Below, piece after piece: positions 2 through 21,302 of a stretch of DNA of 25,352 bases. Position 1 is the stretch's first letter, and each line of letters begins with the position of its first letter. The notes beneath the pieces were generated by a model, which was not told the origin of the DNA, ran no database searches, and saw nothing but the letters and a program-made list of their open reading frames with translations. Source of the DNA: a bacterium (GTDB lineage: Bacteria > UBP15 > UBA6099 > JAJRTR01). The position numbers and the translations under genes were made by a program. Where the stretch lies: assembly GCA_024278215.1 (NCBI GenBank), contig JAJRTR010000023.1, forward strand, positions 1 through 25,352, given 5' to 3'.

Positions 2-3000
2 GAAGTCGCTGTGCTGGCGGTGGACGGAGCGAGCAACACGTCGACAATCGCAACTGCATCATACGACATAGATTACACGATACCGACAATCAATGTGGCA
101 ACACCTGCATCGGGGACGTGGCAGTCGGCTCAGTTCGAGGTCGACACGACCGAGGCGGACACTGGCGGCGCGCTGCTTTCCGAGTGCCGTTATCGCGTGG
201 AATCCAACAGTGTCGAAACACTTGCGTGGCAGGTGTATACATGCGGCGAGTACGCAACGGTAACGGTGGGCGCGACGGGCTACTGCCAGAACGAAGGGTC
301 GGGTATGTGCGAAGTCGCGGTGCTGGCGGTGGACGGAGCAAGCAATACGTCGACAATCGCAACGGCATCATACAACATAGATTACACAATACCGACGACA
401 AGCATCGCGAGTCCTGCGTCGGGGACGTGGCAGTCGGCGCAGTTCGAGGTGGACACGACCGAGGCGGACACGGGCGGCGCGTTGCTGTCGGAATGTCGTT
501 ACCGAGTGGAATCCAATAGTGTCGAAACACTTTCGTGGCAGACATATACGTGCGGCGAGTACGCAACAGTAACGGTGGGCGCGACGGGCTACTGCCAGAA
601 CGAAGGGGCGGGTATGTGCGAAGTCGCTGTGCTGGCGGTGGACGGAGCGAGCAATACTTCGCTGATAGCGAGTGCGACATACAGCATAGATTATTCGAGT
701 CCGACAGTAACTTTGAATTCGCCTGCAACAGGGACATGGGAGTATACGGATTTTGATATTGATGTGGACGAGACAGACAGCGGCGGGTCCGCGCTGCTGA
801 GTTGCGAGTATCACGTCGAATCGAACACGGTGGAAACAGTTGCATGGACATCGTATGGCTGCGGCGCCACGCCGACGGTCACAGTTGGCGGCAGCGGCAA
901 CTGCGATTTCGAGGGAACGAATAGATGTCTGGTCGAGCTGCGGGCGACCGACAACGCGGGCAATGTGCAGACGAGCGCGAGCGCGACATACTCGATAGAT
1001 TTCTCCAGCCCGACAGTAGCGATCAACACGCCTGCCTCGGGCACCTATAAGAACGATGATTTCGTCGTCGACGTTACAAACGACGACGGCGGAGGTTCTC
1101 CCCTTACGACTTGTGAATATATGGTGGAAGCGAATTCGTCGGAAACAGTTTCGTGGTCGGCCTACACATGCACGAGCGATCCTACTATTACAGTGGGCAC
1201 CGCATCGGATTGCGATGTGATGGGAGACAATAAATGCGCTGTATATTTCAGGAACACCGATACGGCGGGGAATGTATCGGACATGGCGAGCCGCACATTC
1301 TCGATAGATTATGCGAGCCCGACAATCGGGATCGCCACACCTGTCGCGAGTTCCTATCAGAACGAAGAATTTACAGTCGACGTAACAAATGCCGACACAG
1401 GCGGGGCGTTGCTGTCGACGTGCGAATACAAAATAGAAGCAAACGCGTCGGAAACAGTAGCATGGACGGGATACGGTTGCGGAGTCGACCCATCTGTAAC
1501 AGTGGGAGCGGGAGTTAACTGTGACGTCGAGGGCGCGGACATGTGCGTCATATATCTGAGGAGCACCGACAACGCGGGCAATATCGCGGACACAGCGAGC
1601 CGCGCATTCTCGATAGATTATTCGAGCCCGACGACGACGATCAACAGCCCGGCCTCAGGAACATGGGAAATTGCGCAGTTTGAAGTGGATGTGACAAACA
1701 GCGACACGGGCACATCCTCGCTTTCATCATGCGAATACAGTGTCGAAAGCAACGGTGTGGAAACGCGCGCCACGGAGACATATACCTGCACGGCCAATGC
1801 CACGGTAACAGTAGGCGCGGGGCTGGATTGTCGCGACGAAGGGATCAACACATGCCGCATATTGTTCAAAAACACCGACGGCGCGGGCAATATCGACCTG
1901 TCGGCCACCCGCACATTCTCTATAGATTACTCGAGTCCGACAGTCACCATTAATTCACCGACAATCGGCGACTGGATCGGCGCGGCCGGATTTACCGTCG
2001 ATATTATCAACGCCGACACCGGCGGCTCCGGCCTTTCAACATGCGACTACCGCGTAGTGAGCGGCGCGACGGAAACAGTCGCGTGGACGGGATATACATG
2101 CACAAGCAACACCGACATATCCGTGGGCGTTTCAAACAATTGCGACTTCGAAGGAACGAACGCCTGCGAGGTGTACTTCAGAGGCACGGACACCGCCGGG
2201 AACGTCGCGGCGACGTCGTCGCGGCAGTTTTCGGTGGACTTCTCGAGTCCGACAGTTACAATCGACGGCCCGGCGGCGAGTTCGCCGGTGGGCAGTTCGG
2301 GGATCACGGTTCTGGTAACAAACACGGACACCGGCGGGTCGAACCTCGCGACATGCGAATACCGCGTCGAGAGCAACAGCGTCGAAACCCGCGCATGGAC
2401 TGCCTATACATGCACGTCGGACCCGACACTTACATCCGGAGGCGGCAACGACTGTGACTTCGAGGGAACGGACAAGTGCGAGATATTCCTGAGGGCGACA
2501 GACGATTCCGGGAATGTCGCAACGACGCAATCGAGAACATTCTCCGTCGACTTCAGCGAACCGACAATAACAGCACGCGAAACCGTGGACATGGATGGCG
2601 ACGGCTACCTGGACGCTATCCATGTAATATTCTCGGAAAATATCGATGATTCACATATAGTAGCGTCCGAGTTCGATGTCGAAAGCGTCACTGGCGAGGC
2701 GTTCGCTACCAACACGCTCGGCGACACGGAAGACGACGCCGACATTTACATAACATTTACACAGGGCACAACATGGAACACGGGCGACCTGCCCACACTG
2801 GAGTATACAGGACCGAACGCTACAGACCTCGCGAGCAACACAGTCACGGTAGACGGCGCGCCTGTAGCCTGCACCGACACCGCCGGGCCGGTCGTGTGGT
2901 CGGCGGCGACATTCGATGACGATGGTGACGGAACCATCGACCATATAAAAGTGACACTCAGCGAATCCGCCTCGGACACGACATTCGTGGCGGGCAACTG

Positions 3001-6000
3001 GAGTGTGAGCGACACGGCGTCCGTCGACGGTCTCAGCACAGGCGGCGCGATAACAAGCGAAACCGATACCGCCGATGACGATATTATTTATATCGCGATC
3101 ACAGCCTCCGCCACGCTGGATACCGACCTGATCGACGAAGTCTATGACACGACCGTCAGCGGCGGCGCGCTTACCGACATGAGCGGCAACACGATATCCG
3201 ACTGCGACAGCGCATGTGTCACGGAAACGGACGGCGCGGCACCTGTCGTGAAATCGACAATTGCCGAAGATACGGACATAAACGGATACCTCGATACTGT
3301 TACCCTGACATACAGCGAAGCGGTAGCGGGAACCGGGATTATAGCCGACTGGACGCTGACCGACGCATCCGGTTCCATTGATCTGCTGTCCGGCCTTACC
3401 GACGCGAGCGCGACGGTTTCGTCCGACACTATCACATTTACACTCGCGGACAATACGGGAACGACCGGCGCTCCTTCTTATGCCTACAGCGGAACAGATA
3501 TTCATGATACAAGCAGCAACGATATGGCCGCGACGGGCACGACACCCGTGACAGACGGCGCGAAACCCGTGATCACGGCAGCGACAGTACTCGACGACAC
3601 AAGGGATGGAACGATGGACCTTGTGAAAGTCGCCTTCAGCGAATCGGTCGACGACTCGACATTCGCGACGACAGGCTGGACTGTGAGTTCCGCAACTGTC
3701 AACGGGATGAAAACAGCAGGCTTCACAAATGAGACAGACACTGCGGACGACAACACTATCTACCTCGACATCACAGCGGCAACAACAGATGATACGGACC
3801 TCGTTACAGAGGAATACCAGACACAGGTGAGCGGCGGTGTTCTGGCGGACGCGGCGGGAAATACAGTGGCCGACTGCGCGACGAACGGATGTGTGGTCGA
3901 GCAGGACGGCGCGTCGCCGGTCGTCATAGCGGTCTCGGCGATGGACGACAACGCGGACGGCACTATCGACACAATGAAAGTAACACTGACGGAAGCCATA
4001 ACCGACGCGGACTTCGACGCGGCGCGCTGGACAGTGGCGGACACGACGACTATCGACGGCTTGAGAAGCCCGGTGCAATCGGAAACCGACACTGCCGACG
4101 ACGATACAATATATATAGCGGTGAGCGGAGCCACGCCGGACGACACCGCTCTGGACACGGAAACATACGACACAACAGCCACAAACGGGCAGCTTCACGA
4201 CGCGGCGAACAATTATATGGTCGACCTCGCCGGGGGTGATATAACCGAAACAGACGGCGCGGGACCGGCAATAATCGGTACAGACGCGTCCGCGGGCTCC
4301 AGCACTGTGATGGTCTACTTCTCGGAGAACGTCTACAATGCCACCGGTTCTCCCGCTTCACCCGGAGGCGACCTGGACGCCGCGGACATCACTTACACGG
4401 ACAATGTGCAGGGAACACGGACCATAGTGAGTTTCAATACTACGGCAGGCACGGCGACCGGAACGCTGATACTTTCCGGGGTTGTGGATTTTGTCGATGA
4501 TCTCGCGACGGATACGATACAGGTTGCTGCTGCATCCATATACGACGGCAACGACAACGCGGCCGGAAGCAACGCAAGCGCAACGCTCCAGGACAGTTCG
4601 ATACCTGAAATCGTCAAAGCGTATCAGTTCGACACGGACGGCGATGGGAATATCGACGAAATAGCTCTCGAATTCTCCGAGTTCATTGACGACTCGACGG
4701 TGTCGACGACGGACGCCGCGCGGTTCGCGTTCGGCGCCACAAACTGCCTGACTGTCGACGACACGACAGACGCGGCGGGCGCTTCCGCGAGCAATTCCAT
4801 CGACCCGGACATCGCAAACGACCAGTACATAACGCTCTTTACAGACGACTCGTCAGTTGCGGGCACCGATAAAAAGGAAATGATATATACGACATCGGCA
4901 GGCGTGTTCAGCGACTTCGGTGGAAACGATGTCGGGACGGACGCGGCGATCACGGAAGTCGACAGGGCAGCGCCCGCGTATCTGTATTCCACCATGCAGG
5001 ACACCGACGCGACCCCGAACGGTTATGTGGACCGGATAGTTGTCGTATTCTCCGAAGACATGACCGATCCCGGCAACGACTCGGCAAACTGGACGCTGTC
5101 GAATATTCCCAGCGGCGGAACAGTAAGCACAATCGGACGCACGGCGACGGCGGAGATCACAATCGCCCTGACGGAAGGCGGCGGGGCGGCGGACACCGCT
5201 GTCGGCTCGCTTCAGATTTCATTCGACGGCACGGCAACTTCCATTCATGACGCTGACGCCAACGCCGCCGCTTCGTTCGGTCCCGTGGTCCCGATAGACG
5301 GTGCCGCGCCTGTTGTCATTGCAGCTTCCACGGCGGACAGCAATATTGTCGACGGATACGTGGACACTGTGCTGATAACTTATTCCGAAGCCGTCAGAAC
5401 AACAGCGGGCGACGGCGCGCTCGACATCGCCGACCTGGCCTCCAACACGCTCACCGGTGAGACCTACGCATCGGGAAGCGGAACGGTGACACTGACGTTC
5501 ACGGCGACAAATTCAATGAACGTCGACGCTTGGGACACGGACGAAGTGCCTGCGACGGTAACTTACGCGACAGGCACCGGTTCCCTGGACATTGTAGACG
5601 TGTCGGACCAGGCGAACGAAGCGATAGCACAGGCGTTCGCGGCTGTGACGGACGGCGCGGTGCCGATAATCGTCGCTGCGCGCACAGGCGAGGCAACAGG
5701 CACTGAAAACGGGTTCGTCGATATTATCCGTCTGACATATTCCGAACCGGTGACGATACCCGCGGGCGCACGGAGCGAGTTTGCCGTCGCGGACCTCGCA
5801 TCCAACAACCTCACGAACGAATCGTGCGCGGTCGGCGGCTGCGGAAGTGGAACGCAATATATAGAAATAAGCGTAACCAACACGGAAAACGCGAGCGCGT
5901 ACGACACCGAGGAGACACCGGCGAATATCGTTTACACGCAATCGGCCGGAATAGTTCAGGACATGTCCGCCGCCGCGAACGACGCGCCCACACAGACGTT

Positions 6001-9000
6001 CAGCAGTGTCACGGACGGCGCGGGACCGTGGCTGCAGGCGATAAGTCTGTATGACACGACAACAAGCAGTTCGGCCTATTCAAACAACCTGACAATCGGG
6101 GTTTCATTCGACACAGTGACAGGCAGCGCGGTGGATATGTTGTTCGCGCAGGACTCGGGCTTCGCTTCCAACACCGCCGGGTGGGCGGCCTTCAGTTCGC
6201 CGACGACATACACACTTACTGACGCGCAGGGCACGCGCACGGTATACCTCGAACTTCGCGATTCCTCCGGGAACATCGGCGCTTATGTAAGCAATGAAAT
6301 AATAATTGATACGGTCATGCCCGCGGTGACGCTCGGGCAACCCAACGGCGGCGAGACGATAACAGGCCTGCCGGGATATACCTATAACATCACATGGGCC
6401 GCAAGCGACGATAACATCGAGGACGCGCCCATATCGCTTTATCTCGACATAAACGATGGAGCCACGGTTACAACGACCATTGCCACAGGGCAACTCGACA
6501 CGGGTTCGTACACGTGGGACCCGCCTGAAAACGAAACGGACAATGCCTGGATAAGAATCGTCGCAACAGATAAAGCAGGCAATGAAACTACCGATTACAG
6601 CGACTCGCCGTTCAGCCTTGACAGCGAGACTCCGAGCGTCACACTCGAAGACCCCGCGCCGACTGAAGAATGGAAAGGCGGCGGCAGCCAGGACATCACA
6701 TGGACAGTAGTGGACGCGCATATCACAGGCGCGAGCCCGATAGCAATTTACTATTCGACAGACGGATTCACATCCACAAATACAATCACCACCGGTGTCG
6801 GCAGGGGAACTCCGGTCGGCGGCGACAGCTACCAGGGCACATATACGTGGAACCCTGTCGATTCGATAACGGACAATGTCGAGATCAGGGTCGTCGCAAC
6901 CGACGACTCGGGACTCCAGGGCCAGAGCCTGGATGTTGCTATTGTTATCGACAGTACTCCGCCGAACACCGGCTCGATAACAATCGTCGACAACTCCGGC
7001 TGGACAAACGACACAACGCCGGAACTGCAAATCGCCACTCTGGACAACACTTCGGAGGCGATGCAAAGCAGCGACACGATGAAGCTGGCCTGCACGGAAG
7101 CGGGGCTCGCTTCCGCCACCGCCGTTCCTTACGCGACATCGGTTACGACCTTCGACATCACCACCGGGCCGGGCTGCGCCGACGCGGACGGAGAAATATA
7201 CGTCTGGGTCGAGTTCGCCGACGTCGCAGGCAATATCCAGACTACGCATGTCAGCGACAGCACCAACCTCGAACGCGACGCCACAGACATCGTCACCGCC
7301 GTCCAGGGCTGCAACGACACGAGTTGCACGAGCCCGATATCGCCGCCGCCCGCATATGCCGTGGTTCCCGATCCATATTTCGAATGGACCGCCCCGACAT
7401 CCGGCGCGGGCATCGCGCCCATGGAAGGCTATTCCGTGGTGCTGACGCTCCGCACCGATCCGGACCCCGCCTCGTGCACCGTTCACGTCACGACCGAATC
7501 GAAACACTTCTCACAGTCCGAAGTCGCGGCTGTCGTGCAGGGCACCAACGGCGAGGCGACCGTATGGATCAAACCCATAGACAAGGCAGGCAACTGCGGA
7601 CAGACAGCATCTTATGACGTCAATGTGGACATCTTCGCGCCGGATTCGCCGACTATCACCGTGTCGAACTATGAATATCTCGACGCTTCCACCACCCCGG
7701 ACACCTACTGGGTCAAAGGCCTGAACCCGTTCAACATGACCGTGCGGTACCAGGAAGCCGCATCCATCGACGTAATATACACATCGTTCAACCAGGACGC
7801 TCCCGACTATATGATACTTTCCCACGACTGGAATTCCGCGTCGACTATATATGACGACAACACGGTCGGCGCCATGTTCATAACATCGTTCTCGGGCGTC
7901 GAGACGGAAGGCAGCGGCGACGGTGCCGCCATCCCGACACCGAGCGCGAGTGACGGCTTCGCCTATACCTGGACTCTTAATCCCCTCGAGACCAACGCGA
8001 CATACTACATAAGGTCGAGAGGCACGGACCAGGTCGGCAACGACAGCGGCTGGTCTTCCGACACGCTTTACATCAATATCGACTCGACAAAACCGACATT
8101 CACACTGCTCGAAGTCAAAACAGACGATGGAAACACCTCGATATCGGCCAACGACTACGATGTCTTCACAAACGACACAACTCCTGAATTCGCCGGTATC
8201 CTTACAGACGCTGAAAGCGGTCTCAACAGGGTCGACTATATATGCGACAACGGTAACGACTGCGGTGGCAACATGCCCGATACCTGGACCACCGGTGACA
8301 CGGGCAGCGCGGTGTGGAGCGTGACAACACCCGTCATTTCAGGACACAACGACGTCCACCTCAGGGGCTTCGATAATGTGTATAACTACACGACTTCCGG
8401 CGACGGTGCCGTCGCCGACGCCGACGTCTTCATCGACAACATGCCCCCGCTCAGCGCGTCGGCGTCGATTGTCGCAACGTCAACCGTCGGCACGCAGATA
8501 GACCTGTCGTGGTCCATTCCGCTCGACCAGGGCGACGGCACGGGTGCCGTGGACGGCGCGACGGAATCATACGGTGAAGCACAGGACTGGTACCGCGTCG
8601 GCGACGTCGGTGTACAGATCGTACGAACCGACGTTATAACGCTGGCGACAACTACCGTTCTCACGTGGACGACGGATACTTCATTCACTGACACCGGTCT
8701 TTCTCCCGACAGTGTTTACAGGTACGATTTCATAACGCGCGACAATAACAGTGAAACGCGTGGCTCATGGCACAACCAGACGGCGACATACACGTTCCAG
8801 GTCAGCACTATCCCGAACGCCGTGTTCATATCCAGCCTGGACGTAAGCTACGACCCGCCGAGCGCGCAGGGGGGGAACGACGAGGGCCACACCATTATCG
8901 TCAATAATGATCCCAACGGCAACGTGCTGCCGGTCAATTTCGAGATCACCATGACTTCAATCGACGGTGTGCCCGATGGTACTGTCACGGCGACGACCAG

Positions 9001-12000
9001 CATCGCCGTGAAGTTTATAAACCTGCTCGAGAACACAACATACTGCTTCACCCTCGTGGCCGTAAGCGACGATGGAGTAAGGACAACTACATCCGCCGAA
9101 GAGTGCGAAAAAACTATCGACTTCGCCGATGTAACGCCGCCGGTGTTTACAGGGGTTCAGTCCGTGACAGACCCGTTGACCGGCGGCACGCTCGTGCTGG
9201 CATGGGATGCCGCCACAGACGATTCGGCTCCGATTACATACAAAATTTTCGTTTCCGAAACTTCACGCAGCTACGACTTTAACAGCCCGATTGCCGAAAC
9301 CACGGACCTGAGCGCGACTATTACCGAACTTGTTCCCGGCACTCCTCTGCAAAACAACAATACGTACTACTTCGTAATGCGCGCCCAGGACGGCTCACTC
9401 GCCGCCAACATTACAAGTTCCACCAACACGCCCGAACTATCCGGCGTTCCCACTCTCGACGACATACCGCCTACCATCACCGACAACCAGGCAGGCGACG
9501 ACAACTGGTATGCCTCCGACCCCGGCCTCATCTATGACGTGGACTTCACGGACACAGGCGGCGCGCTCCTCGACAATGTCCAGTACACCATGTGGAGCGG
9601 CTCCGCATTCTCCAGTTCCGAAGTTCTCACCTGGACGAATATCGCTTCCGGCATCGACGCGGCCACCTATACCGCCGAATGGGGTGTCGACTTCAGCTCG
9701 GCTGTCGACGGGCGCAACTACGTTTCTGTGCGCGGCTACGACAACTTCGCCAACCTTTCCGCGCCTGCCACCGATGTATTCTATGTGCAGAAAGATACAA
9801 CACCGCCCTCCATCGCCGACAACCAGACGGGCGACGACTCATGGCGCAACTCTGATCCCGGCGCGATATACGACGTAGACTTCACAGACGGCAATTACTC
9901 GCTGCTCGATAACGCACAGTATACTGTCTGGTCCGCATCCGGCATGAGCGCGGGCACAGGCACGGAAGTCATCGCCTGGACAGACATCGCCGCAAGTATA
10001 GATTCCGCCACATACTCGACCAACTGGAGTGTGGACTTCAGCAGCCTCGGCGAAGGGTACAACTTCGTTTCCGTCCGAGCATACGACAATGTCGCGAATG
10101 CAAGCTCCGTCGCGACGGATGTCTTCTACATTAAAAGAGACACCACGCCGCCGACTGTCACCGACAACCAGGCGGACGACGACATCTGGCGCAACACCGA
10201 CCCCGGCGCGATATACGACGTAGACTTCGCGGACACCGGCGGTTCGCTGCTCGACAGTGTGCAGTATACCGTATGGAGCGGTGCCGGCTTCAGCGGCAGC
10301 GAGCAGGTCGCCTGGACGAATATTGCAACGGGCGTGTCCTCAGGCACATATACGACCGACTGGGCCGTCGATTTCGACGCCGCGGCCGAGGGCTACAACT
10401 ATGTTTCCGTACGCGCCATTGACGGCGTCGGCAACATTTCCGCCGTGGCAACGGATACGTTCTCATTTAAGAAGGACACAACCGGCCCTTCCGTCACCGA
10501 CAACCAGACGGGCGACGACACATGGTACGACAATGCGTCCACACCGGTGTTCGATGTCGACTTCGGCGACACGCTTTCGCAACTCGACAACATCCAATAC
10601 ACAATATGGTCCGGTGCCGGCATGAGCGGCACGGAGTTCATTACATGGACCGACATCGCCGACAACCTCGACTCGGCCGCTTATTCGACAGACTGGTCCA
10701 TCGACATGGCCACTCTGACCGACGGCGTAAACTATATTTCCGTGCGTGCCTACGACATGATCGGCAATATTTCAGACGTTTCCACAGATGTCTTTTATGT
10801 CAGGATGGACACATCGCCGCCGACTATTACCGACAACCAGACGGGCGACGACACATGGCGCAATACCGACCCCGGCCCGATCTTCGACGTCGACTTCAGC
10901 GACTACGGCTCTCAACTCGACAACATACAGTATTCCATATGGGACGGAGCACTACTGTCGGGTACGGAAGTTATCGGCTGGACGGACATCGCCTCCTCGA
11001 TAAATGCCACGGAATACAACACGGACTGGGCTGTCGACTTCGCGTCGGCGGTCGAGGGTTTCAACTACGTTTCAATCCGCGCCTACGACAATCTCGGCAA
11101 TGTTACCGATGTCGCGACCGACGCGTTCTACATCAAAAAGGACACCACGCCGCCGGTAGTCACGGATAATCAGTCCGGCGATGACACATGGTACGATGCG
11201 GATCCGGGTGCGGTGTTCGATGTCGACTTCACCGACGCGGGCGGTTCACAACTGGAGAACGTGCAGTATACAGTCTGGAGCGCGTCCGGCATGGGATCGG
11301 GCACGGGAACCGAGGTCATCTCCTGGACCGACATCAGCGCCGGCATCGCCTCCGATTCATATACGGTCGACTGGGCCGTCGACTTCGGGTCTTTGAACGA
11401 GGGCTTCAACTTTGTCACCGTCCGCGCTTACGACACGGTGGGGAATGTCTCGACCGTCGCTACCGACGTGTTCTACATAAAGAAGGATACCATCGGACCC
11501 GCGATAACCGACAACCAGACGGGGGACGACACATGGTATAACGACGCGTCGACTCCCGTGTTCGACGTCGACTTCAGCGACATCGACGCTTCGCTGCTCT
11601 CCAATGTACAATATACTGCCTGGAGCGGCGCGGACTTCTCAGGCTCGGAAGTTATTACATGGACAGATATTTCAACAGGAATAAACAGCGCCACATACAC
11701 GACCGACTGGAGCATCGACATCCCGTCGGTCGCCGACGGAATAAATTATATTTCCGTCAGGGCTTATGATATCGCCGGCAACGTATCATCCGTCGCGACA
11801 GACGCTTTCTATGTGAAAAAAGACTCGACGCCACCTTCGTTTACAGACAACCAGACAGGCGACGACACTTGGCGCAACACCGATCCGGGCGCTGTATTCG
11901 ACATCGACTTCAGCGACTCCGGCGCGCTGCTCGATAAAGTTCAGTACACCATCCGCGACGCCTCGGGCCTCGGCGGCTCCGAAGTCGTCGCCTGGACAGA

Positions 12001-15000
12001 CATCGCCGCTTCCATAGATTCCGCCGCCTACACGACAGATTGGGCCGTCGATTTCGATTCCTGCGTCGAAGGGCTCAACTATGTCTCCGTACGCGCCTAC
12101 GACCAGGTCGGAAACCTGATGCCGACAGCCACGGATGTCTTCTATGTTAAAAAAGATACAACATCGCCGACTGTCGCGGACAACCAGACGGGCGACGATA
12201 CATGGTACGCGCTAAGTCCCGGCGCGGTGTTCGATGTCGATTTCTCCGACGGCGATTTCTCCCTGCTCGACAAAGTCCAGTATGCTGTCTGGTCCGCCTC
12301 CGGCATGGGCGCGGGCACAGGCACGGAAGTTATCACCTGGACCGATATCGCAACCGGCGTCGGTTCCGCGAGCTACACCACTCAATGGGGCGTCGATTTC
12401 GCCGGGCTCGACGATGGATATAACTACGTTTCCGTCCGTGCCTACGATACCGTCGGCAATGTCTCGGAAGCGGCCACCGATGTATTCTATATAAAGAAAG
12501 ACACAACCGGGCCCGCGATAACCGACAACCAGGCGGGTGACGATACATGGTACAACGCCTCGGCGACTCCGGTTTTCGATGTGGACTTCGGCGACTCCGA
12601 CGGCTCGCTGCTCGACAACGTGCAATATTCCGTGTGGTCCGCCTCCGGCATGGGCGGCACGGAAATCATCGCCTGGACAAATATCGCTTCGGACATCAAT
12701 CAGTCAACATACACCACCGACTGGCAGGTGGATATGCCCGGCCTGCAGGACGGCACCAACTACGTCACAGTGCGCGCCTACGATACCGTAGGTAATGTAT
12801 CCGCAACCGCCACAGATGTTTTCTATGTGAAGAAAGACTCGACGCCGCCCGCCGTCACTGACAACCAGCCGGGCGACGACACCTGGTATGCGGAAGACCC
12901 GGGTGCGGTGTTCGACGTCGACTTCAGCGACACGAGTGGCTCGCTGCTCGATAAACTGGAATATACGATATGGTCCGGCGCGGCGATGTCCGGCTCGGAA
13001 GTCATCACCTGGACGACTATCGCCGACAATCTGAATACCGAAACTTACACGGATAACTGGGCTGTAAACTTCGCAAGCGCCGCCGAGGACAATAACTATG
13101 TCTCCGTACGCGCCTACGACATGGTCGGCAATGTTTCCAGTGTCGCGACCGATGTGTTTTATGTTAAAAAAGACACCACGAAGCCGCAGATCGTCGACAA
13201 CCAGGCTGGTGACGATACATGGTATAACGCTTCGGCAACGCCGGTATTCGATGTGGACTTCGAAGACCCCGACGGTGCCGACCTCGACAACGTGCAGTAT
13301 ACAGTGTGGTCGGGAACCGGCATGAGCGGCAGCGAAATCATCACCTGGACGGACATCGCCTCCGGCATAAATTCGGGGACCTACACTGACGACTGGCAGG
13401 TCGACATCGCCGGCCTCGAAGACGGTTTCAATTACGTTTCCGTCAGGGCTTTCGACTCCGTGGGCAACCGTTCGGCGACAGGAACGGATGTCTTCTACGT
13501 AAAGAAGGACTCGACACCGCCCACGATTACGGATAACCAGGACAACGACACCACCTGGCACAAAAGCGATCCCGGCGCCGTGTATGATGTCGACTTCGGC
13601 GACGACGGCTCTTTGCTTAATGTCGCCAGATATACAATATGGACCGAAGCTTCGATGGGCGGCGAACAGGTTATCGAATGGACGGCAATCGCGGAAAACA
13701 TCGACGCGGCAACCTATTCGGATAACTGGGGCGTCGACTTCGACAACATGGCGGAAGGCTACAACTATGTGTCTGTCATCGCATACGACAATGTCCTGAA
13801 CGTATCCGCCGTCGCCACCGATGTATTCTACATACTGAAAGACACACTTGCGCCGACCGCGCAGATTTTCTCCCCCACTTCGGGCACAAGCATCTCGGAC
13901 GGCTCGGTCATCATAACAGGCACAGCCGACGACGAAGGCGATGCGATTTCTTATTCCGTCGAATACAGCCCCGACAGCGGTACTTCCTGGAAGGAAATAG
14001 CTTCCGGAAATGAAGGGGTTGTCTCCGGCACATTCACCACATGGGACACTTCCGAACTCTCCGGCGATTACACCATCAGGCTCAGTGTCACGGACATTTC
14101 GGGCAACCTCACACAGGATTCCGTCACAGTCAATATCTCCAACGCCGTGACAATCTCAGGCACGATACCGGCGGACAAGTGGGCGATGATTTCCATCCCC
14201 GGCAACCCGGTGACAACCAATCCCGCTTCGTTCCTCGGCAGCACGAGCTACGCCATCAGGAAATGGGACCCGGCCGTCACGCAGGACGACCCGATACTCG
14301 CGAAATACAAAACCGAGTTCTCGATTGGCTCGGGCGACGGATTCTGGGTAATGCCCTTCGACGACAGCATCAGCTACAGCCTTACCGTCGAGGTGTCGGA
14401 CACAACCGCTTTCCAGACGGTACACCTCGAGAACGGCTGGAACCAGATCGGCGTGCCCTACAACAGGGCGATGCTGCTCGGCGACGTGATGGTGAAAAAC
14501 ACAAGCACCGGCGAGACCCTCAGCATGTCCGCCGCAGCCGACAACAACTGGATCGTCGGCGGCACGGCCTATTCATATAACGGGAGCGGCTACGACCAGG
14601 TCGCGGACACTGAAAAACTGTCGCAGAGCGAAGGCTACTTCATAAAATGCGGCGACGTTTCACTGCTGCCGTCGGGCTGCGACCTGCTGTTCGATCCCGG
14701 CTCGGAAAGGCTCGGCGGCATCGCCCGCGTCATCAGGCAGCCTACTTTCGACTTCAAACTCCAGGTGGCCGCGCAGGGCGGCGGTGTCGAGGACACAGAC
14801 AACTTCATCGGCGTGGTTTCCAACGGGCGCCTCGCCTATGACGGTCTGGACAAACCCGAACCGCCTACTATCGAACCCTACATAAGCCTGTACTTCCCGC
14901 AGCCCGACTGGGGCGGCATGGCCGGTCGCTACGCCAACGACATCCGCGGCTTCTACACAGGTGTCTCCACCTGGAAATTCGCTGTCGACACAGACCTCGA

Positions 15001-15700
15001 CGGCAAGGACATTACAATTACCTTCCCGCTCAGGGCCTACGACGCCGACCGCTACAATGTCACCGTCGAGGACCTCACAACCGGCGCGCAACTCGATATC
15101 GCGTCGCCGTATACATTCAGAAGCGACGGCAACACCAGGGAATTCAAAGTTTCCGTCGACGCGAAAGATGTCGGCGAGGAAACCCTCACACACACCATAA
15201 AGAAGGGCTGGAATCTCGTGACGATACCGCTCGACCCGCGAACCACCGACGCTCGCATGCACCTTGCGGACGACTTCCAGGATACGCTCAACATGTACCA
15301 GTTCTATGAAAACGAGTTCTACGACCCGGACAGCAACCAGAAAGTAGACATACAGGCCGGAGTCGGCTACTGGCTCTATTCCGACGAAGAAAAGACGATA
15401 GACATCTCCGGCAAGGCGATCCCGAACGCGCTTCCGCTGGAACTCCCGCTCTCGAAAGGCTGGAATATTATCGGCGATCCTTATAGAATCGATATTCCGT
15501 GGGGGGATAATATCGGCATTGAATTCGCCGGTACCAGATACACTCTCGAAGAGGCCGACAACCTGGGTATTGTGGATTCCCGGCTTTACGTATATGATAA
15601 CGGTGCATATTCAGTAAATGAAACAGGTACCATGAAAGCTTGGAATGGTTACCTGATTAAAGTCAGAGACAAATGTACGATTATTTTCAGCAGTCAGTAA
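2..15700 (+). CDS. Giant mosaic extracellular repeat protein (5' partial)
   Basis: The reading frame is open from base 2, so the true start and any signal peptide lie outside the window; 5,232 codons are visible before the TAA stop. The product is built almost entirely of beta-sandwich-type repeats. In order these are eight ~103-residue Cys-containing repeats, about ten SbsA/Big_5-like Ig domains with acidic D-x-D-x-D-G type motifs, two 'NGGE...I.W' modules, a stretch of Ig and fibronectin-III-like domains (about 6960-9450), thirteen ~112-residue 'TDNQ.GDD.W' repeats, one more Ig-like domain, and a C-terminal block with four 'GWN.I..P' modules. It is rich in Asp, Thr and Ser. No LPXTG, PEP-CTERM or recognised T9SS tail is visible; it ends in FSSQ. 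The paired cysteines and acidic loops fit an extracytoplasmic, calcium-stabilised surface protein or adhesin. That role is inferred from architecture; the exact function is unknown. The downstream barrel gene begins six bases after the stop, so the two are probably one operon. Confidence 0.9.
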   Translation, partial: EVAVLAVDGASNTSTIATASYDIDYTIPTINVATPASGTWQSAQFEVDTTEADTGGALLSECRYRVESNSVETLAWQVYTCGEYATVTVGATGYCQNEGSGMCEVAVLAVDGASNTSTIATASYNIDYTIPTTSIASPASGTWQSAQFEVDTTEADTGGALLSECRYRVESNSVETLSWQTYTCGEYATVTVGATGYCQNEGAGMCEVAVLAVDGASNTSLIASATYSIDYSSPTVTLNSPATGTWEYTDFDIDVDETDSGGSALLSCEYHVESNTVETVAWTSYGCGATPTVTVGGSGNCDFEGTNRCLVELRATDNAGNVQTSASATYSIDFSSPTVAINTPASGTYKNDDFVVDVTNDDGGGSPLTTCEYMVEANSSETVSWSAYTCTSDPTITVGTASDCDVMGDNKCAVYFRNTDTAGNVSDMASRTFSIDYASPTIGIATPVASSYQNEEFTVDVTNADTGGALLSTCEYKIEANASETVAWTGYGCGVDPSVTVGAGVNCDVEGADMCVIYLRSTDNAGNIADTASRAFSIDYSSPTTTINSPASGTWEIAQFEVDVTNSDTGTSSLSSCEYSVESNGVETRATETYTCTANATVTVGAGLDCRDEGINTCRILFKNTDGAGNIDLSATRTFSIDYSSPTVTINSPTIGDWIGAAGFTVDIINADTGGSGLSTCDYRVVSGATETVAWTGYTCTSNTDISVGVSNNCDFEGTNACEVYFRGTDTAGNVAATSSRQFSVDFSSPTVTIDGPAASSPVGSSGITVLVTNTDTGGSNLATCEYRVESNSVETRAWTAYTCTSDPTLTSGGGNDCDFEGTDKCEIFLRATDDSGNVATTQSRTFSVDFSEPTITARETVDMDGDGYLDAIHVIFSENIDDSHIVASEFDVESVTGEAFATNTLGDTEDDADIYITFTQGTTWNTGDLPTLEYTGPNATDLASNTVTVDGAPVACTDTAGPVVWSAATFDDDGDGTIDHIKVTLSESASDTTFVAGNWSVSDTASVDGLSTGGAITSETDTADDDIIYIAITASATLDTDLIDEVYDTTVSGGALTDMSGNTISDCDSACVTETDGAAPVVKSTIAEDTDINGYLDTVTLTYSEAVAGTGIIADWTLTDASGSIDLLSGLTDASATVSSDTITFTLADNTGTTGAPSYAYSGTDIHDTSSNDMAATGTTPVTDGAKPVITAATVLDDTRDGTMDLVKVAFSESVDDSTFATTGWTVSSATVNGMKTAGFTNETDTADDNTIYLDITAATTDDTDLVTEEYQTQVSGGVLADAAGNTVADCATNGCVVEQDGASPVVIAVSAMDDNADGTIDTMKVTLTEAITDADFDAARWTVADTTTIDGLRSPVQSETDTADDDTIYIAVSGATPDDTALDTETYDTTATNGQLHDAANNYMVDLAGGDITETDGAGPAIIGTDASAGSSTVMVYFSENVYNATGSPASPGGDLDAADITYTDNVQGTRTIVSFNTTAGTATGTLILSGVVDFVDDLATDTIQVAAASIYDGNDNAAGSNASATLQDSSIPEIVKAYQFDTDGDGNIDEIALEFSEFIDDSTVSTTDAARFAFGATNCLTVDDTTDAAGASASNSIDPDIANDQYITLFTDDSSVAGTDKKEMIYTTSAGVFSDFGGNDVGTDAAITEVDRAAPAYLYSTMQDTDATPNGYVDRIVVVFSEDMTDPGNDSANWTLSNIPSGGTVSTIGRTATAEITIALTEGGGAADTAVGSLQISFDGTATSIHDADANAAASFGPVVPIDGAAPVVIAASTADSNIVDGYVDTVLITYSEAVRTTAGDGALDIADLASNTLTGETYASGSGTVTLTFTATNSMNVDAWDTDEVPATVTYATGTGSLDIVDVSDQANEAIAQAFAAVTDGAVPIIVAARTGEATGTENGFVDIIRLTYSEPVTIPAGARSEFAVADLASNNLTNESCAVGGCGSGTQYIEISVTNTENASAYDTEETPANIVYTQSAGIVQDMSAAANDAPTQTFSSVTDGAGPWLQAISLYDTTTSSSAYSNNLTIGVSFDTVTGSAVDMLFAQDSGFASNTAGWAAFSSPTTYTLTDAQGTRTVYLELRDSSGNIGAYVSNEIIIDTVMPAVTLGQPNGGETITGLPGYTYNITWAASDDNIEDAPISLYLDINDGATVTTTIATGQLDTGSYTWDPPENETDNAWIRIVATDKAGNETTDYSDSPFSLDSETPSVTLEDPAPTEEWKGGGSQDITWTVVDAHITGASPIAIYYSTDGFTSTNTITTGVGRGTPVGGDSYQGTYTWNPVDSITDNVEIRVVATDDSGLQGQSLDVAIVIDSTPPNTGSITIVDNSGWTNDTTPELQIATLDNTSEAMQSSDTMKLACTEAGLASATAVPYATSVTTFDITTGPGCADADGEIYVWVEFADVAGNIQTTHVSDSTNLERDATDIVTAVQGCNDTSCTSPISPPPAYAVVPDPYFEWTAPTSGAGIAPMEGYSVVLTLRTDPDPASCTVHVTTESKHFSQSEVAAVVQGTNGEATVWIKPIDKAGNCGQTASYDVNVDIFAPDSPTITVSNYEYLDASTTPDTYWVKGLNPFNMTVRYQEAASIDVIYTSFNQDAPDYMILSHDWNSASTIYDDNTVGAMFITSFSGVETEGSGDGAAIPTPSASDGFAYTWTLNPLETNATYYIRSRGTDQVGNDSGWSSDTLYINIDSTKPTFTLLEVKTDDGNTSISANDYDVFTNDTTPEFAGILTDAESGLNRVDYICDNGNDCGGNMPDTWTTGDTGSAVWSVTTPVISGHNDVHLRGFDNVYNYTTSGDGAVADADVFIDNMPPLSASASIVATSTVGTQIDLSWSIPLDQGDGTGAVDGATESYGEAQDWYRVGDVGVQIVRTDVITLATTTVLTWTTDTSFTDTGLSPDSVYRYDFITRDNNSETRGSWHNQTATYTFQVSTIPNAVFISSLDVSYDPPSAQGGNDEGHTIIVNNDPNGNVLPVNFEITMTSIDGVPDGTVTATTSIAVKFINLLENTTYCFTLVAVSDDGVRTTTSAEECEKTIDFADVTPPVFTGVQSVTDPLTGGTLVLAWDAATDDSAPITYKIFVSETSRSYDFNSPIAETTDLSATITELVPGTPLQNNNTYYFVMRAQDGSLAANITSSTNTPELSGVPTLDDIPPTITDNQAGDDNWYASDPGLIYDVDFTDTGGALLDNVQYTMWSGSAFSSSEVLTWTNIASGIDAATYTAEWGVDFSSAVDGRNYVSVRGYDNFANLSAPATDVFYVQKDTTPPSIADNQTGDDSWRNSDPGAIYDVDFTDGNYSLLDNAQYTVWSASGMSAGTGTEVIAWTDIAASIDSATYSTNWSVDFSSLGEGYNFVSVRAYDNVANASSVATDVFYIKRDTTPPTVTDNQADDDIWRNTDPGAIYDVDFADTGGSLLDSVQYTVWSGAGFSGSEQVAWTNIATGVSSGTYTTDWAVDFDAAAEGYNYVSVRAIDGVGNISAVATDTFSFKKDTTGPSVTDNQTGDDTWYDNASTPVFDVDFGDTLSQLDNIQYTIWSGAGMSGTEFITWTDIADNLDSAAYSTDWSIDMATLTDGVNYISVRAYDMIGNISDVSTDVFYVRMDTSPPTITDNQTGDDTWRNTDPGPIFDVDFSDYGSQLDNIQYSIWDGALLSGTEVIGWTDIASSINATEYNTDWAVDFASAVEGFNYVSIRAYDNLGNVTDVATDAFYIKKDTTPPVVTDNQSGDDTWYDADPGAVFDVDFTDAGGSQLENVQYTVWSASGMGSGTGTEVISWTDISAGIASDSYTVDWAVDFGSLNEGFNFVTVRAYDTVGNVSTVATDVFYIKKDTIGPAITDNQTGDDTWYNDASTPVFDVDFSDIDASLLSNVQYTAWSGADFSGSEVITWTDISTGINSATYTTDWSIDIPSVADGINYISVRAYDIAGNVSSVATDAFYVKKDSTPPSFTDNQTGDDTWRNTDPGAVFDIDFSDSGALLDKVQYTIRDASGLGGSEVVAWTDIAASIDSAAYTTDWAVDFDSCVEGLNYVSVRAYDQVGNLMPTATDVFYVKKDTTSPTVADNQTGDDTWYALSPGAVFDVDFSDGDFSLLDKVQYAVWSASGMGAGTGTEVITWTDIATGVGSASYTTQWGVDFAGLDDGYNYVSVRAYDTVGNVSEAATDVFYIKKDTTGPAITDNQAGDDTWYNASATPVFDVDFGDSDGSLLDNVQYSVWSASGMGGTEIIAWTNIASDINQSTYTTDWQVDMPGLQDGTNYVTVRAYDTVGNVSATATDVFYVKKDSTPPAVTDNQPGDDTWYAEDPGAVFDVDFSDTSGSLLDKLEYTIWSGAAMSGSEVITWTTIADNLNTETYTDNWAVNFASAAEDNNYVSVRAYDMVGNVSSVATDVFYVKKDTTKPQIVDNQAGDDTWYNASATPVFDVDFEDPDGADLDNVQYTVWSGTGMSGSEIITWTDIASGINSGTYTDDWQVDIAGLEDGFNYVSVRAFDSVGNRSATGTDVFYVKKDSTPPTITDNQDNDTTWHKSDPGAVYDVDFGDDGSLLNVARYTIWTEASMGGEQVIEWTAIAENIDAATYSDNWGVDFDNMAEGYNYVSVIAYDNVLNVSAVATDVFYILKDTLAPTAQIFSPTSGTSISDGSVIITGTADDEGDAISYSVEYSPDSGTSWKEIASGNEGVVSGTFTTWDTSELSGDYTIRLSVTDISGNLTQDSVTVNISNAVTISGTIPADKWAMISIPGNPVTTNPASFLGSTSYAIRKWDPAVTQDDPILAKYKTEFSIGSGDGFWVMPFDDSISYSLTVEVSDTTAFQTVHLENGWNQIGVPYNRAMLLGDVMVKNTSTGETLSMSAAADNNWIVGGTAYSYNGSGYDQVADTEKLSQSEGYFIKCGDVSLLPSGCDLLFDPGSERLGGIARVIRQPTFDFKLQVAAQGGGVEDTDNFIGVVSNGRLAYDGLDKPEPPTIEPYISLYFPQPDWGGMAGRYANDIRGFYTGVSTWKFAVDTDLDGKDITITFPLRAYDADRYNVTVEDLTTGAQLDIASPYTFRSDGNTREFKVSVDAKDVGEETLTHTIKKGWNLVTIPLDPRTTDARMHLADDFQDTLNMYQFYENEFYDPDSNQKVDIQAGVGYWLYSDEEKTIDISGKAIPNALPLELPLSKGWNIIGDPYRIDIPWGDNIGIEFAGTRYTLEEADNLGIVDSRLYVYDNGAYSVNETGTMKAWNGYLIKVRDKCTIIFSSQ
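68..2545 (+). repeat. Type A repeats: eight 103-104 residue Cys-rich Ig-like modules
   Basis: Eight tandem coding repeats begin at 68, 377, 686, 995, 1304, 1613, 1922 and 2234. The first six steps are exactly 309 bp and the last two are 312 bp. Each starts with I/V-D-[YF]-x-x-P-T and carries four conserved cysteines, in contexts such as S-C-E-Y, Y-T-C, a third before x-x-E-G, and a fourth before a beta strand, then ends in a D-x-A-G-N loop. Four Cys per module suggests two disulfides, which fits an oxidising extracytoplasmic location. The first two copies, and the fragment before base 68, are nearly identical in DNA. Copies 3-8 are much more diverged. The array clearly continues upstream of the window. 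Confidence 0.93.
2546..6026 (+). repeat. Type B repeats: SbsA/Big_5-like Ig domains with acidic calcium-type loops
   Basis: About ten repeats of roughly 105-120 residues follow the type A block. Most open with an acidic loop (DMDGDGYLD near 2590, DDDGDGTID near 2917, DTDGDGNID near 4630, with weaker forms DNADGTID and DTRDGTMD) followed directly by a strand resembling V-x-V-x-[FY]-S-E-x-[VI]. That strand is characteristic of SbsA-type bacterial Ig-like domains. The acidic loops resemble EF-hand/dockerin/thrombospondin-type calcium ligands, so calcium-dependent stiffening is a reasonable inference. One unit near 4270-4600 lacks the acidic loop. Many units close with a T-D-G-A-x-P linker into the next one. 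Confidence 0.85.
6320..6949 (+). repeat. Two 'NGGE...I.W' (Kre9/KNH-like) modules
   Basis: Two adjacent modules start at 6320 and 6632. Each has a V-T-L-x-x-P opening, a Gly-rich turn, a Y-x-I-x-W or D-I-T-W strand, and a closing strand resembling N-x-x-I-R-[IV]-V-A-T-D. This is the pattern of the short beta-sandwich modules often described as Kre9/KNH-like in bacterial surface proteins. The second copy has the Gly-rich turn G-G-G-S-Q. They separate the type B block from a heterogeneous Ig/fibronectin-III stretch. Family assignment rests on motif resemblance only. Confidence 0.6.
9458..13846 (+). repeat. Type D repeats: thirteen ~112-residue 'TDNQ.GDD.W' modules
   Basis: Thirteen tandem modules have their D-N-Q motif codons at 9482, 9818, 10163, 10499, 10832, 11165, 11510, 11846, 12179, 12524, 12860, 13196 and 13532, giving steps of 333-345 bp. 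Each reads D-x-x-x-P-x-[IV]-x-D-N-Q-x-G-D-D-x-W, then [FY]-D-V-D-F, Q-Y-x-[IV]-W, a W-T-x-I strand, a D-W-x-V-D strand, N-Y-[VI]-S-V-R-A-Y-D and T-D-x-F-Y-[VI]-K-K. Modules 2, 6 and 9 carry a G-T-G insertion and are 345 bp long. The modules fall into three classes arranged in a higher-order order. Predicted to be beta-sandwich Ig-like stalk domains. Confidence 0.93.
14158..15697 (+). repeat. C-terminal block of four 'GWN.I..P' modules
   Basis: The C-terminal ~510 residues contain four related segments: DKWAMISIPGNP near 14180, NGWNQIGVPYNR near 14435, KGWNLVTIPLDP near 15205 and KGWNIIGDPYR near 15460. Each is followed by a G-[FY]-[WFL]-[VIL] strand (GFWVMPF, GYFIKCG, GYWLYSD, GYLIKVR) and a short strand ending the unit. 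Such GWN modules occur at the C-termini of many large bacterial exoproteins. Between the second and third lies an unrecognised ~180-residue segment (about 14700-15190). This block could be the secretion or anchoring domain, but no known sorting signal is present. Confidence 0.75.
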
Positions 15701-15706
15701 CAGGTT

Positions 15707-18157
15707 ATGAAAAGGTCTATTGCAATGTCACGAAATGCGGGTGAAATAAAGCCGGCAGGCAAGCTATTCCTGTGGCTTGCGGTAATGCTTACCCTGTTCG
15801 TGTGCGTGTCTGTTCACGCGCCTGTTCTGGCAGTGGACATGTCCGGCACGCGGTCTTTCTCTAAAGATGGCGTAATAGTCTATCCCGGCCCCAACGCCGT
15901 TCTCAAATCACGCAGACCCGTAATAGGCGCGGACTACATAAACATCCCCGGCAAAGTGTGGTACGAACCGACACTGATCGTGGACGGCCAGGACGTCACT
16001 CAATATTGCGACATAAACAGGGGCTACATCTTCTATAAGCCTCCTGTTGCACTCCTGCAGGGCGAACACGATGTCGAGTTGTTGCTTTCGGCAAACGCGG
16101 AAACGCCGAAACCCTATGCGAAGTGGTCTTTCTCCGTAGGCTGGACGCCTCCCCTTCGATATGTCTATCCCCCGGCTCAGACCATCACTGACAACACCGC
16201 CCCCGCTATCGGTGTCAACTTCAACGAAATGCCGGAATCCGTCAATCCCGAAACTGTAAAATTGATCGTTGACGGCCGCGACGTTACCGGCAACAGTTTT
16301 GTATCCGAAGATTCCATTTTATATATTCCCGAAAAAGCGCTGTACGAAGGTGTGCACACAGCAGTTGTTTCCGCACACACGCCCACCGGCAAAAGACTCG
16401 ATTCCATCGTGTGGAAGTTCAAGGTCGAACCCCCCGCTCCCGAAGGAGTTGCGGCGCAGGGCGCTCCCCAAAAAACATCACCCGACGAACGTCACAAAAA
16501 ACGCGGCATAGACAGCGCCAGGCTCATGAGCGGCACAAAACGGCGCGACATGACCATTGCGAGAGCGACACAGTATGTCGAGCAGATGTCGGCACCCGCG
16601 GAAACACAGCCGCCCCCGGAAACACAACCTGCCGCAACCACCATCGTCGCCCTGAAACCCGAAGCAACCGTCCAGAAACCCACCGAAGAAGAAACTCTCG
16701 CTAAGGGCTTCCTCATGCCGACGATGGGCGAAGGCCCCGATTACGGTATCACGCAGGCTTACACAACAGAGCCCTACACGGAATTCGCCTACAACACTTC
16801 CTACGGCTTTGAAAAAGTTAAGGTCAACGGTGCTGAAGATAAAAGTTCACAGCGACCGCACGACGCCCTGATATACAAGGTAGGGCTTCGCACACAGACA
16901 TCCCTGCTCGGCGAGGACAACACATCGCGCATGTTTTCCACGACAATCACCATGAACGGCACAAGCGACGGCGACGATACGGAATCCTTAACCGACCTGA
17001 AAGTTTTCACCGCAAAGCTTAAAACCGATAATACCCTGACCCAGATGTATGACATCCACCCGAGATACACGCCCTATTCACTAAGCGGCTCGAGACTTCT
17101 CGGCGGCGAATACAAGGTCAACATGGGAAACGCGAACATGCACGTATTCGGCGGGAAATTCAAGAACAACCGCGGCGGCAACAGAATCGACCTCTACGGT
17201 GCGCGCTACGACAATGAAATGCCCGCGAAAGGCATAAAATACGGCATTCAATATGTAACCAACACGCTGACAAGGCTCAGGGGCGGCAACAAAGTTTTCA
17301 ACTCTATCGCCGGTTTCAACGCCGAAAAGAAACAAAAAAATGGAACGACAAAAGTCGAGTTCGCTCAGAGCCGCTATAGTGGGCTGGGCGACGACACCGC
17401 ATATAAAATAGAACACAATTACAGAAAAAAGAAACTCTATGTTTCCTCAAAATACGAGGACGTCGGCAGCTTTTTCAGGTCCGAAAGCGGATATGCGTCC
17501 AAAGGTCTTAAAGAGTTCAACACTTCGATGCAGTACAGATTCAACAAAAGGCTCACGACTGTTCTGGGATTCAAACGCCGGAAATTCGAGGAAGGCGGCA
17601 GCCGCACAAAATCTATTCCTCTCATCGTGAAATTCCTGCCTCTGGCAAACAAGCCTTCGACCACCCTCGAACTCAACTTCAAGAAAACGGACTATGAAAA
17701 GGGTAACGTCACAAAAGATACAATGACTTATAATTATAAGCTCAGGCATGATCTCGGCACAATCAGCACCTTCCTGTCTTATAAAGAAGAAAGCAAGGAG
17801 CGGCGCGGTGTGCCGGTCGACGAAGTCGAGCGCATCTCAAACATGCAGCTCAAGTGGCCGTTCGTCGAAAATATCGACGCTGTGTACAAGTTGTCAAAAG
17901 TCTACAACAACAAATACGGACCGGAAACAAAAAATATCTACGGCATCAAATATGAGCTTTCCGACTGGAGCGACTTCTCCATATCATACGAAACCGTAAA
18001 CAAGCTGCAACCGTCTCTCGACCGCGAATCGAGAAAACTCCGCTACTCGATGGTCAACCCCGAAACGAACTCGGAGATACTCGTCGAAATCAAGCAAAAC
18101 CTTTTCCTCGATTACACCGAAAACTATTCCCTGTTCAAATATTCCATATTCTATTGA
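15707..18157 (+). CDS. Secreted protein with two Ig-like domains and C-terminal outer-membrane beta-barrel
   Basis: An 816-residue product. It has a basic N-terminus, a hydrophobic core at about residues 20-36 and a likely signal peptidase I site after residue 42 (V-L-A|V-D). Residues ~50-148 and ~150-240 are two copies of an Ig-like domain, each with an L-I-V-D-G-x-D-V-T strand. Residues ~240-345 form a Pro/Glu/Thr-rich linker with a basic patch. The last ~460 residues are alternating polar/aromatic strands separated by charged turns and end in Y-S-I-F-Y, as expected of an outer-membrane barrel with a C-terminal aromatic. A second start at 15725 has a better-placed AAAAGG upstream and would shorten the N-terminus by six residues. 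The six-base gap to the giant gene implies co-transcription, perhaps translational coupling. A role in export or anchoring of the giant protein is inferred from context only. No specific family is recognised. Confidence 0.85.
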   Translation: MKRSIAMSRNAGEIKPAGKLFLWLAVMLTLFVCVSVHAPVLAVDMSGTRSFSKDGVIVYPGPNAVLKSRRPVIGADYINIPGKVWYEPTLIVDGQDVTQYCDINRGYIFYKPPVALLQGEHDVELLLSANAETPKPYAKWSFSVGWTPPLRYVYPPAQTITDNTAPAIGVNFNEMPESVNPETVKLIVDGRDVTGNSFVSEDSILYIPEKALYEGVHTAVVSAHTPTGKRLDSIVWKFKVEPPAPEGVAAQGAPQKTSPDERHKKRGIDSARLMSGTKRRDMTIARATQYVEQMSAPAETQPPPETQPAATTIVALKPEATVQKPTEEETLAKGFLMPTMGEGPDYGITQAYTTEPYTEFAYNTSYGFEKVKVNGAEDKSSQRPHDALIYKVGLRTQTSLLGEDNTSRMFSTTITMNGTSDGDDTESLTDLKVFTAKLKTDNTLTQMYDIHPRYTPYSLSGSRLLGGEYKVNMGNANMHVFGGKFKNNRGGNRIDLYGARYDNEMPAKGIKYGIQYVTNTLTRLRGGNKVFNSIAGFNAEKKQKNGTTKVEFAQSRYSGLGDDTAYKIEHNYRKKKLYVSSKYEDVGSFFRSESGYASKGLKEFNTSMQYRFNKRLTTVLGFKRRKFEEGGSRTKSIPLIVKFLPLANKPSTTLELNFKKTDYEKGNVTKDTMTYNYKLRHDLGTISTFLSYKEESKERRGVPVDEVERISNMQLKWPFVENIDAVYKLSKVYNNKYGPETKNIYGIKYELSDWSDFSISYETVNKLQPSLDRESRKLRYSMVNPETNSEILVEIKQNLFLDYTENYSLFKYSIFY

Positions 18158-18281: not shown

Positions 18282-18590
18282 TTACATAGACATTCTAAGT
18301 GTCTGCTGATAGGCTTCGACAAGCCGATTCCTGATCTCAAGTGTGAGATTCAACGCAAGCGCGGCTTTCTGCCCGGCGATCATGACTTCCGATACGTCGT
18401 CTATATCACCCATCGCAAGCTGGAAACTCTTCTTGTCGGCATTTTTAATGGTAGCATTAACATCCTCGACAGCGTTTTTTATGATTTCGCCGAAAGTGGC
18501 GCCTTCGTATTTGCCGGGTACGTTAAAAGCCTTAACTTTGACATCGTCGAAAATATTCGGCGGTACCGGTGGTGTCGGTCCTATTTTCAT
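18282..18590 (-). CDS. fliE: Flagellar hook-basal body protein FliE
   Basis: A 102-residue protein of the expected FliE length. FliE joins the MS ring to the proximal rod of the flagellar basal body. Recognisable features are the central F-x-[ED]-I-I-K-N-A-V-E-D-V-N segment and the C-terminal part, D-D-V-S-E-V-M-I-A-G-Q-K-A, then L-x-L-x-L-E-I-R-N-R-L-V-E-A-Y-Q-x-x-L-R-M, which is the FliE signature. A ribosome-binding site AGGAAGGG lies about 9 bases before the ATG. It starts 20 bases after the end of flgB on the same strand. fliF does not follow; a terminator does. Confidence 0.93.
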   Translation of the reverse strand: MKIGPTPPVPPNIFDDVKVKAFNVPGKYEGATFGEIIKNAVEDVNATIKNADKKSFQLAMGDIDDVSEVMIAGQKAALALNLTLEIRNRLVEAYQQTLRMSM

Positions 18591-18610
18591 GTTCTATACC
18601 CTTCCTTTTA

Positions 18611-19033
18611 TCATCTTGACGATATTGCCTTGTTGAGCCCCTTGAATGTGGCCGACATCCTTTCCATCACAGCGTCATAGAGCAACTGGTTCTTTGCCAG
18701 CTGCGCCATTTCCACATCGAGGTCCACATTGTTGTCGTCTGCGCGCGATAACGTGTCGTTCTGTCTCCATATTTCCGGCACTACATCGTGCAAATCCGTT
18801 TTGGGGTTGATAGGCATGTGCCTGGCATCAGTCCGCCAGCCGGGAATTCGCGTAGGATTCTTTTCAAGGGCCATTTTGAAGGCGTCCTCGAAACGAACTT
18901 CATTGCGCTTGTAGTGCGGGGTTTCCACATTGGCGAGGTTGTTCGCAATAACCTTCTGTCTTAATGTGGTAGTGTCGATCTGCTTACGCAATGCGATGTA
19001 CATCTTGCTGTCGTATAATTTATCCAGTAACAT
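18611..19033 (-). CDS. flgB: Flagellar proximal rod protein FlgB
   Basis: A 140-residue protein, close to the ~138 of enteric FlgB. FlgB forms part of the proximal rod in the periplasm and is exported by the flagellar type III apparatus. The N-terminus contains the rod/hook-family motif I-A-N-N-L-A-N-V-E-T-P-x-Y-K-R (about residues 29-43). The C-terminal helix has D-V-E-M-A-Q-L-A-K-N-Q-L-L-Y-D-A, typical of FlgB. The start is supported by GGGAG eight bases upstream. In most flagellated bacteria flgB is followed by flgC; here fliE follows directly. No convincing sigma54 or sigma28 promoter was found in the AT-rich upstream sequence. Confidence 0.93.
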   Translation of the reverse strand: MLLDKLYDSKMYIALRKQIDTTTLRQKVIANNLANVETPHYKRNEVRFEDAFKMALEKNPTRIPGWRTDARHMPINPKTDLHDVVPEIWRQNDTLSRADDNNVDLDVEMAQLAKNQLLYDAVMERMSATFKGLNKAISSR

Positions 19034-19376: not shown

Positions 19377-19377
19377 A

Positions 19378-20003: not shown

Positions 20004-20004
20004 T

Positions 20005-21270: not shown

Positions 21271-21302
21271 TTCATTATTCTCCAATAAACAGGCTGGTAA
21301 TA

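Follow-up and report, generated by a model that had tools for sequence, protein, structure and literature searches.

A giant modular surface protein of a UBP15 bacterium and the conserved tail and partner gene that may hold it on the cell

Huge bacterial surface proteins are already known (PMC11573180), and in a survey of fibrillar adhesins nearly half lacked a known anchor and new anchor domains were expected (PMC8286594). The window analyzed here, a stretch of 25,352 nucleotides that makes up the entire contig C198 of a UBP15 genome (GCA_024278215.1; 4.55 Mb in 207 contigs), begins inside a very long coding frame. It raises the question of what kind of protein is encoded and how such a protein would be held on the cell.

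The reading frame and its missing 5′ end

The frame contains no stop over 5,232 codons and is open at the left edge of the window (Table 1). The dN/dS ratio was 0.04–0.14 among near-identical Cys-rich modules and, in a comparison with a 54% identical in-frame relative from the genome DeMMO6_30, 0.22 in the core and 0.28 in the tail. The frame is real and under purifying selection or strong coding constraint, and these values and the relative bear out the original prediction of a single uninterrupted 15.7-kb frame running to the window edge. An assembly artefact was rejected for the window itself, because the 13 stalk modules are only 47–75% identical to one another and another genome carries both core and tail intact. 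Collapse is a risk only for the first three Cys-rich modules, with 83–89% DNA identity, which makes the exact module count provisional.

When the first 3 kb of the window were searched against the rest of the genome, a match was found on one other contig, C144. The right end of C144 matches the same Cys-rich repeat and stops inside it. Its last 77 bases are identical to window positions 11–87; counting from window position 1, 86 of 87 bases agree, and the sole difference is synonymous. The frame on C144 starts with an ATG at C144:42144 (= L004:18748), preceded by a Shine-Dalgarno-like AGGAG, and encodes a classical Sec signal peptide (MRPKNVFGMLLLSFLISIIATGAAQA, read by eye), an N-domain of ~185 residues, and two Cys-rich modules. 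None of the remaining contigs matched this part of the protein. Joined directly, C144 and C198 give about 5,620 residues as a minimum; further repeat copies may be missing. The true start and signal peptide, which had been expected beyond the contig, lie on C144, and the protein is larger than the more than 5,200 residues first given.

A dispersed palindromic repeat of ~180 bases lies ~410 bases upstream of the start of the giant gene and again within the window. It has terminal inverted repeats (GAGCCAATTGCAAAATT ... AATTTTGCAATTGGCTC) and a strong single-strand fold (z −6.9), and at least 174 copies, 93–99% identical, were counted in the 4.55-Mb genome (control, 0). Several contigs start inside this repeat, which matched no Rfam family and looks MITE- or REPIN-like.

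Table 1. Features of the giant gene, its neighborhood, and the window
Feature	Location	Strand	Description
Giant gene, 5′ end	C144:42144-43396		Open frame at contig end
Giant gene, 3′ 5,232 codons	Window 2..15700	+	Open frame and coding constraint
Cys-rich Ig-like modules	Window 2..2563	+	A partial module (2-85), then eight full ones (86-2563); HMM census; NCBIfam OmpL47-type match
Acidic-loop (DxDxDGxxD ... FSE) modules, probably Ca-binding	Window 2564..5977	+	Residues 853-1992; HMM census
Mixed Ig/FnIII region	Window 5978..9478	+	To residue 3159; in conserved core (54% to L053)
Stalk of 13 modules, 112 aa each	Window 9479..13858	+	Residues 3160-4619; HMM census
Last Ig-like module ahead of tail	Window 13859..14125	+	One module
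GWN tail	Window 14126..15697	+	Residues 4709-5232; 524 profile positions
Gap between giant gene and P0002	Window 15701..15706	+	6 bases, operon-like spacing
Partner gene P0002, 816 aa	Window 15707..18157	+	Signal peptide; two Ig-like domains at about residues 45-250; beta-rich C-terminal domain at 359-816
FlgB-like and FliE-like genes	Window 18282-19033	-	Adjacent, FlgC not between
FlgC	C128:24002-24442		On another contig
Dispersed palindromic repeat	Window 19199-19377; C144:41553-41736		Two of the genomic copies
LeuD- and LeuC-like genes; corrinoid-binding-type protein	Window 19518-22113	-; +	Adjoining; named by eye
960-residue protein	Window 22266-25148	-	Long polytopic membrane N-terminal half, GH99/WbsX-like C-terminal domain

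Modules of the giant protein

A module census of the giant protein by HMM confirmed the order that had been read from the window (Cys-rich, acidic-loop, Ig/FnIII, stalk, and GWN modules) and counted exactly the 13 uniform stalk modules predicted. The claim of at least four unrelated repeat classes, however, was wrong for two of them. The Cys-rich modules are 103 residues long with four cysteines each; the eight full ones occupy residues 29–854, and two more lie on C144. Their HMM scored 39 bits on a stalk module, compared with 9 bits for the best of 2,600 shuffles, and a profile–profile comparison of the two kinds of module gave E = 5e-8 over 92 columns. At the level of sequence profiles, the Cys-rich and stalk modules are homologous. 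Both also resemble the OmpL47-type repeat of NCBIfam (NF047446), scoring 117.9 bits (stalk half) and 55.6 bits (Cys half) against a cut-off of 40. The giant protein differs from this family in having one array of 13 modules and another of at least 10, and an AlphaFold model suggests Ig-like sandwiches in it, rather than a membrane barrel. This model, which covered the last two stalk modules, the Ig-like module, and the tail, was all-beta, with a pLDDT of about 70–85 over most of the stalk modules. The best structural matches were common Ig/FnIII chains, including the giant adhesins SiiE and the 1.5-MDa ice-binding protein, with middling scores that point to a shared fold only; in the fold search of the tail, most rows reflected the stalk and Ig-like part, and the tail itself was barely probed.

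Canonical DxDxDGxxD loops occurred five times in the giant protein against 0.28 expected (maximum of three in 500 shuffles) and were also present in the DeMMO6_30 relative. Given this excess and the loops of the relative, the acidic-loop modules are likely to bind calcium. Within the mixed region, an FnIII match was found at about positions 8834–9091 of the window. In the GWN tail, a W-x-F beta domain is flanked on either side by two GWN modules; the tail had no gathering-level match in Pfam or NCBIfam. Weak matches to the Pfam Plectin-repeat and DUF1737 families were seen in some of six aligned tails (three members each, best E 5e-5).

The relative in DeMMO6_30 (L042 = L053) comprises 2,648 residues and is open at its contig edge. 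It aligns with residues 1210–3166 of the giant protein at 54% identity and then jumps to residues 4611–5232, again at 54%, such that the 13-module stalk is absent. Another contig of the same genome, L149, opens with a signal peptide, followed by an N-domain that shares 28% identity with that of the giant protein and then by acidic-loop modules, with no Cys-rich modules; it likely carries the 5′ half of the relative's gene. As judged from these alignments, both repeat arrays are lineage-specific, the absence of the Cys-rich array being read from this probable N-terminal half.

A tail that travels with a partner gene

The gene immediately downstream of the giant gene encodes P0002 (Table 1), homologues of which were found both elsewhere in this genome and among relatives from the same order. 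P0002 had no Pfam match, and a profile of its C-terminal domain (residues 359–816) retrieved nothing from Pfam or PDB. The AlphaFold prediction, made from a seven-row alignment, had a mean pLDDT of 34 and gave no usable model, and the amphipathic-strand signal (z 3.3) was nearly matched by that of a soluble beta control (z 2.8), a poor separation. The C-terminal domain is probably an outer-membrane barrel. The genome is diderm, encoding Omp85 and four secretins.

A member of the partner family lay directly downstream of the tail at all eight loci of the tail subfamily: the giant gene, C84 of the same genome (946 residues), DeMMO6_30 (partner split over two contig ends), UBP15_UBA6099, ADurb.Bin236, USMO, USCA (with a tail truncated at the start of the contig), and RA.bin91. 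Because four of these loci are 97–98% identical, they represent five distinct cassette lineages, which share no more than 55% identity. Proteins bearing the tail are between 946 and more than 5,600 residues long. Pairwise identities of tails and partners correlated at 0.99, with few independent points, and the same two clades of cassettes appeared in the tail tree and the partner tree. Orphan partners fell between the two partner clades, and the cassette could therefore not be shown to have duplicated as one unit. The close relatives are all uncultured; ADurb.Bin236 is listed as unclassified Bacteria at NCBI, another carries the UBP15 label, and a search of the literature on UBP15 found nothing useful.

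Of the 18 GWN-tail matches in the genome of the giant protein, which lie on frames as long as 5,232 codons, six were full-length, and both orphan tails and orphan partners were present. Four full-length, more distant tails had no adjacent partner, and three other large proteins (on C118, C151, and C20) carry half-tails close to the N-terminus. The N-terminal half-tails and the partnerless full-length tails mean that the GWN module is more than a C-terminal docking signal. The half-tails sit where a binding module might be, and distant GWN/W-x-F tails were found in many phyla, as could be expected if the GWN tail were a ligand-binding (e.g., sugar-binding) working tip and the downstream gene encoded an ordinary outer-membrane protein sharing the operon. 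However, the partner is kept at eight of eight subfamily loci despite the very different sizes of the proteins, and the domain is strictly C-terminal in the giant protein and in all full-length tails; we therefore consider a working tip unlikely.

Among the distant tails, eight loci in Armatimonadota (L068–L072, L074, L077, and L098) encode a GWN/W-x-F protein of ~945 residues followed by a protein of ~665–750 residues that is Ig-like at its start and beta-rich at its end. The downstream protein was rejected as a P0002 homologue, since the two are not detectably homologous (hhalign probability 0.1%).

Proposed docking at the outer membrane and its alternatives

The best reading of the locus, which we hold with moderate confidence, is a fibrillar adhesin whose GWN tail docks onto an outer-membrane partner dedicated to it. 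The giant protein would be exported by Sec to the cell surface as a fibre, and P0002, in the outer membrane, would receive the GWN tail and keep the fibre attached to the cell, by analogy with SprF and SprB. The tail would form the membrane-proximal base, the stalk would act as a spacer that sets length, the Ca-type loops and disulfides may stiffen the rod, and the N-domain and Cys-rich modules would be the distal part meeting other cells or surfaces. A surface fibre of distinct segments had been proposed from the window, and the Sec signal peptide, the beta-sandwich modules, the Ca-type loops, and the diderm genome with Omp85 fit this proposal. The GWN modules had been taken for either tip or base; a base is favored and a tip disfavored, because they form the conserved end, which is inherited together with the partner gene that follows it. 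We infer a role in adhesion, and no adhesive or ligand-binding domain was recognized in the giant protein by Pfam.

Fibrillar adhesins with Ig-like stalks (PMC8286594) share with the giant protein great length, surface export (here the signal peptide on C144, read by eye), and a tandem beta-sandwich stalk (here 13 stalk and eight or more Cys-rich modules, with an all-beta model). In contrast to them, the giant protein has no recognized adhesive domain or known anchor and has a new tail and partner. SiiE and MpIBP, giant Ca-binding adhesins of type I secretion, likewise consist of long Ig-like chains with Ca-type loops, and their modules are structurally similar. The likeness is one of common fold only. 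In place of a C-terminal type I signal, the giant protein has a Sec signal peptide, along with a partner gene, and the N-terminal signal peptide on C144 does not fit a type I secreted adhesin of the SiiE or LapA type. For two-partner secretion, P0002 is not of the Omp85 type of TpsB (no Pfam match), and the Omp85 matches of the genome lie on C176 and C193.

In Flavobacterium johnsoniae, the type B substrate SprB (669 kDa) of the type IX secretion system (T9SS) is anchored by the adjacent PorP/SprF-type shuttle SprF (PMC9143113), and the species also has type B substrates and a shuttle that are orphans (PMC12618676). The locus resembles this system in its giant, repetitive, Sec-exported surface protein, its conserved C-terminal domain, its adjoining downstream cognate gene (outer-membrane in SprF, predicted to be so here), and its several paralogous pairs plus orphans (PMC9143113, PMC12618676). 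It differs in that the tail is ~520 residues of GWN modules with no T9SS C-terminal sorting domain, and the partner is an 816-residue protein with Ig-like domains, not PorP/SprF. No NCBIfam T9SS C-terminal sorting domain family matched P0006 or any A1 member at E values up to 1. PorP/SprF (TIGR03519) had no match in the genome or two relatives, compared with 14 and 16 in the Bacteroidota positive controls (Imperialibacter and Flexithrix), and SprA/Sov was absent above the cut-off from the same three genomes, compared with scores of up to 2,332 bits in the controls. Gene order, size class, and orphan pattern, together with SprA-like stretches of ~95 residues (35 bits against a cut-off of 200) in proteins of 1.1–1.25k residues from the same order, might still speak for a true substrate of a strongly diverged T9SS whose partner is a diverged PorP/SprF, but against the strong controls and the unmatched tails this is very improbable. 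The pair would, by analogy, work like SprB-SprF, but it is not a member of T9SS by the tests made.

Secreted proteins of ~1.1–1.25k residues ending in F were also noted in the same order (L135:4053-7799, L136:5039-8413, L152–L154, and L158), some of which carry the short SprA-like stretch. In relatives, such proteins occur near other giant Ig proteins of ~4–4.5k residues, perhaps as a second giant/outer-membrane pairing.

Release of the giant protein as a soluble matrix or biofilm protein, the pair being merely co-regulated, would agree with the absence of any sortase motif or known anchor domain found in it, but we think this highly unlikely, because it leaves the conservation of the partner unexplained and nearly half of the known fibrillar adhesins likewise have no known anchor (PMC8286594).

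Returning to the docked fibre, the giant surface protein itself is real but ordinary in kind, and the novelty lies in the unnamed tail/partner cassette. A conserved tail always travelling with a probable outer-membrane partner suggests a new way to hold giant fibres on the cell, and the locus offers a concrete anchor candidate in which both conserved parts are without Pfam or NCBIfam names. The two homologous arrays (ten or more Cys-rich and 13 stalk modules), present in one genome and missing in its relative, amount to a natural experiment: since the core, tail, and partner are kept, the fibre seems to change in length with its docking end untouched. More tentatively, and with some doubt, the GWN tail and the P0002 family may constitute a docking system at the outer membrane that is of independent origin and unrelated to type IX, in which the tail could follow any stalk and each fibre would have a single partner of its own. 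If this is true, the similar arrangement in Armatimonadota, where a probable outer-membrane protein comes after a GWN/W-x-F protein, would make such docking a theme shared across phyla.
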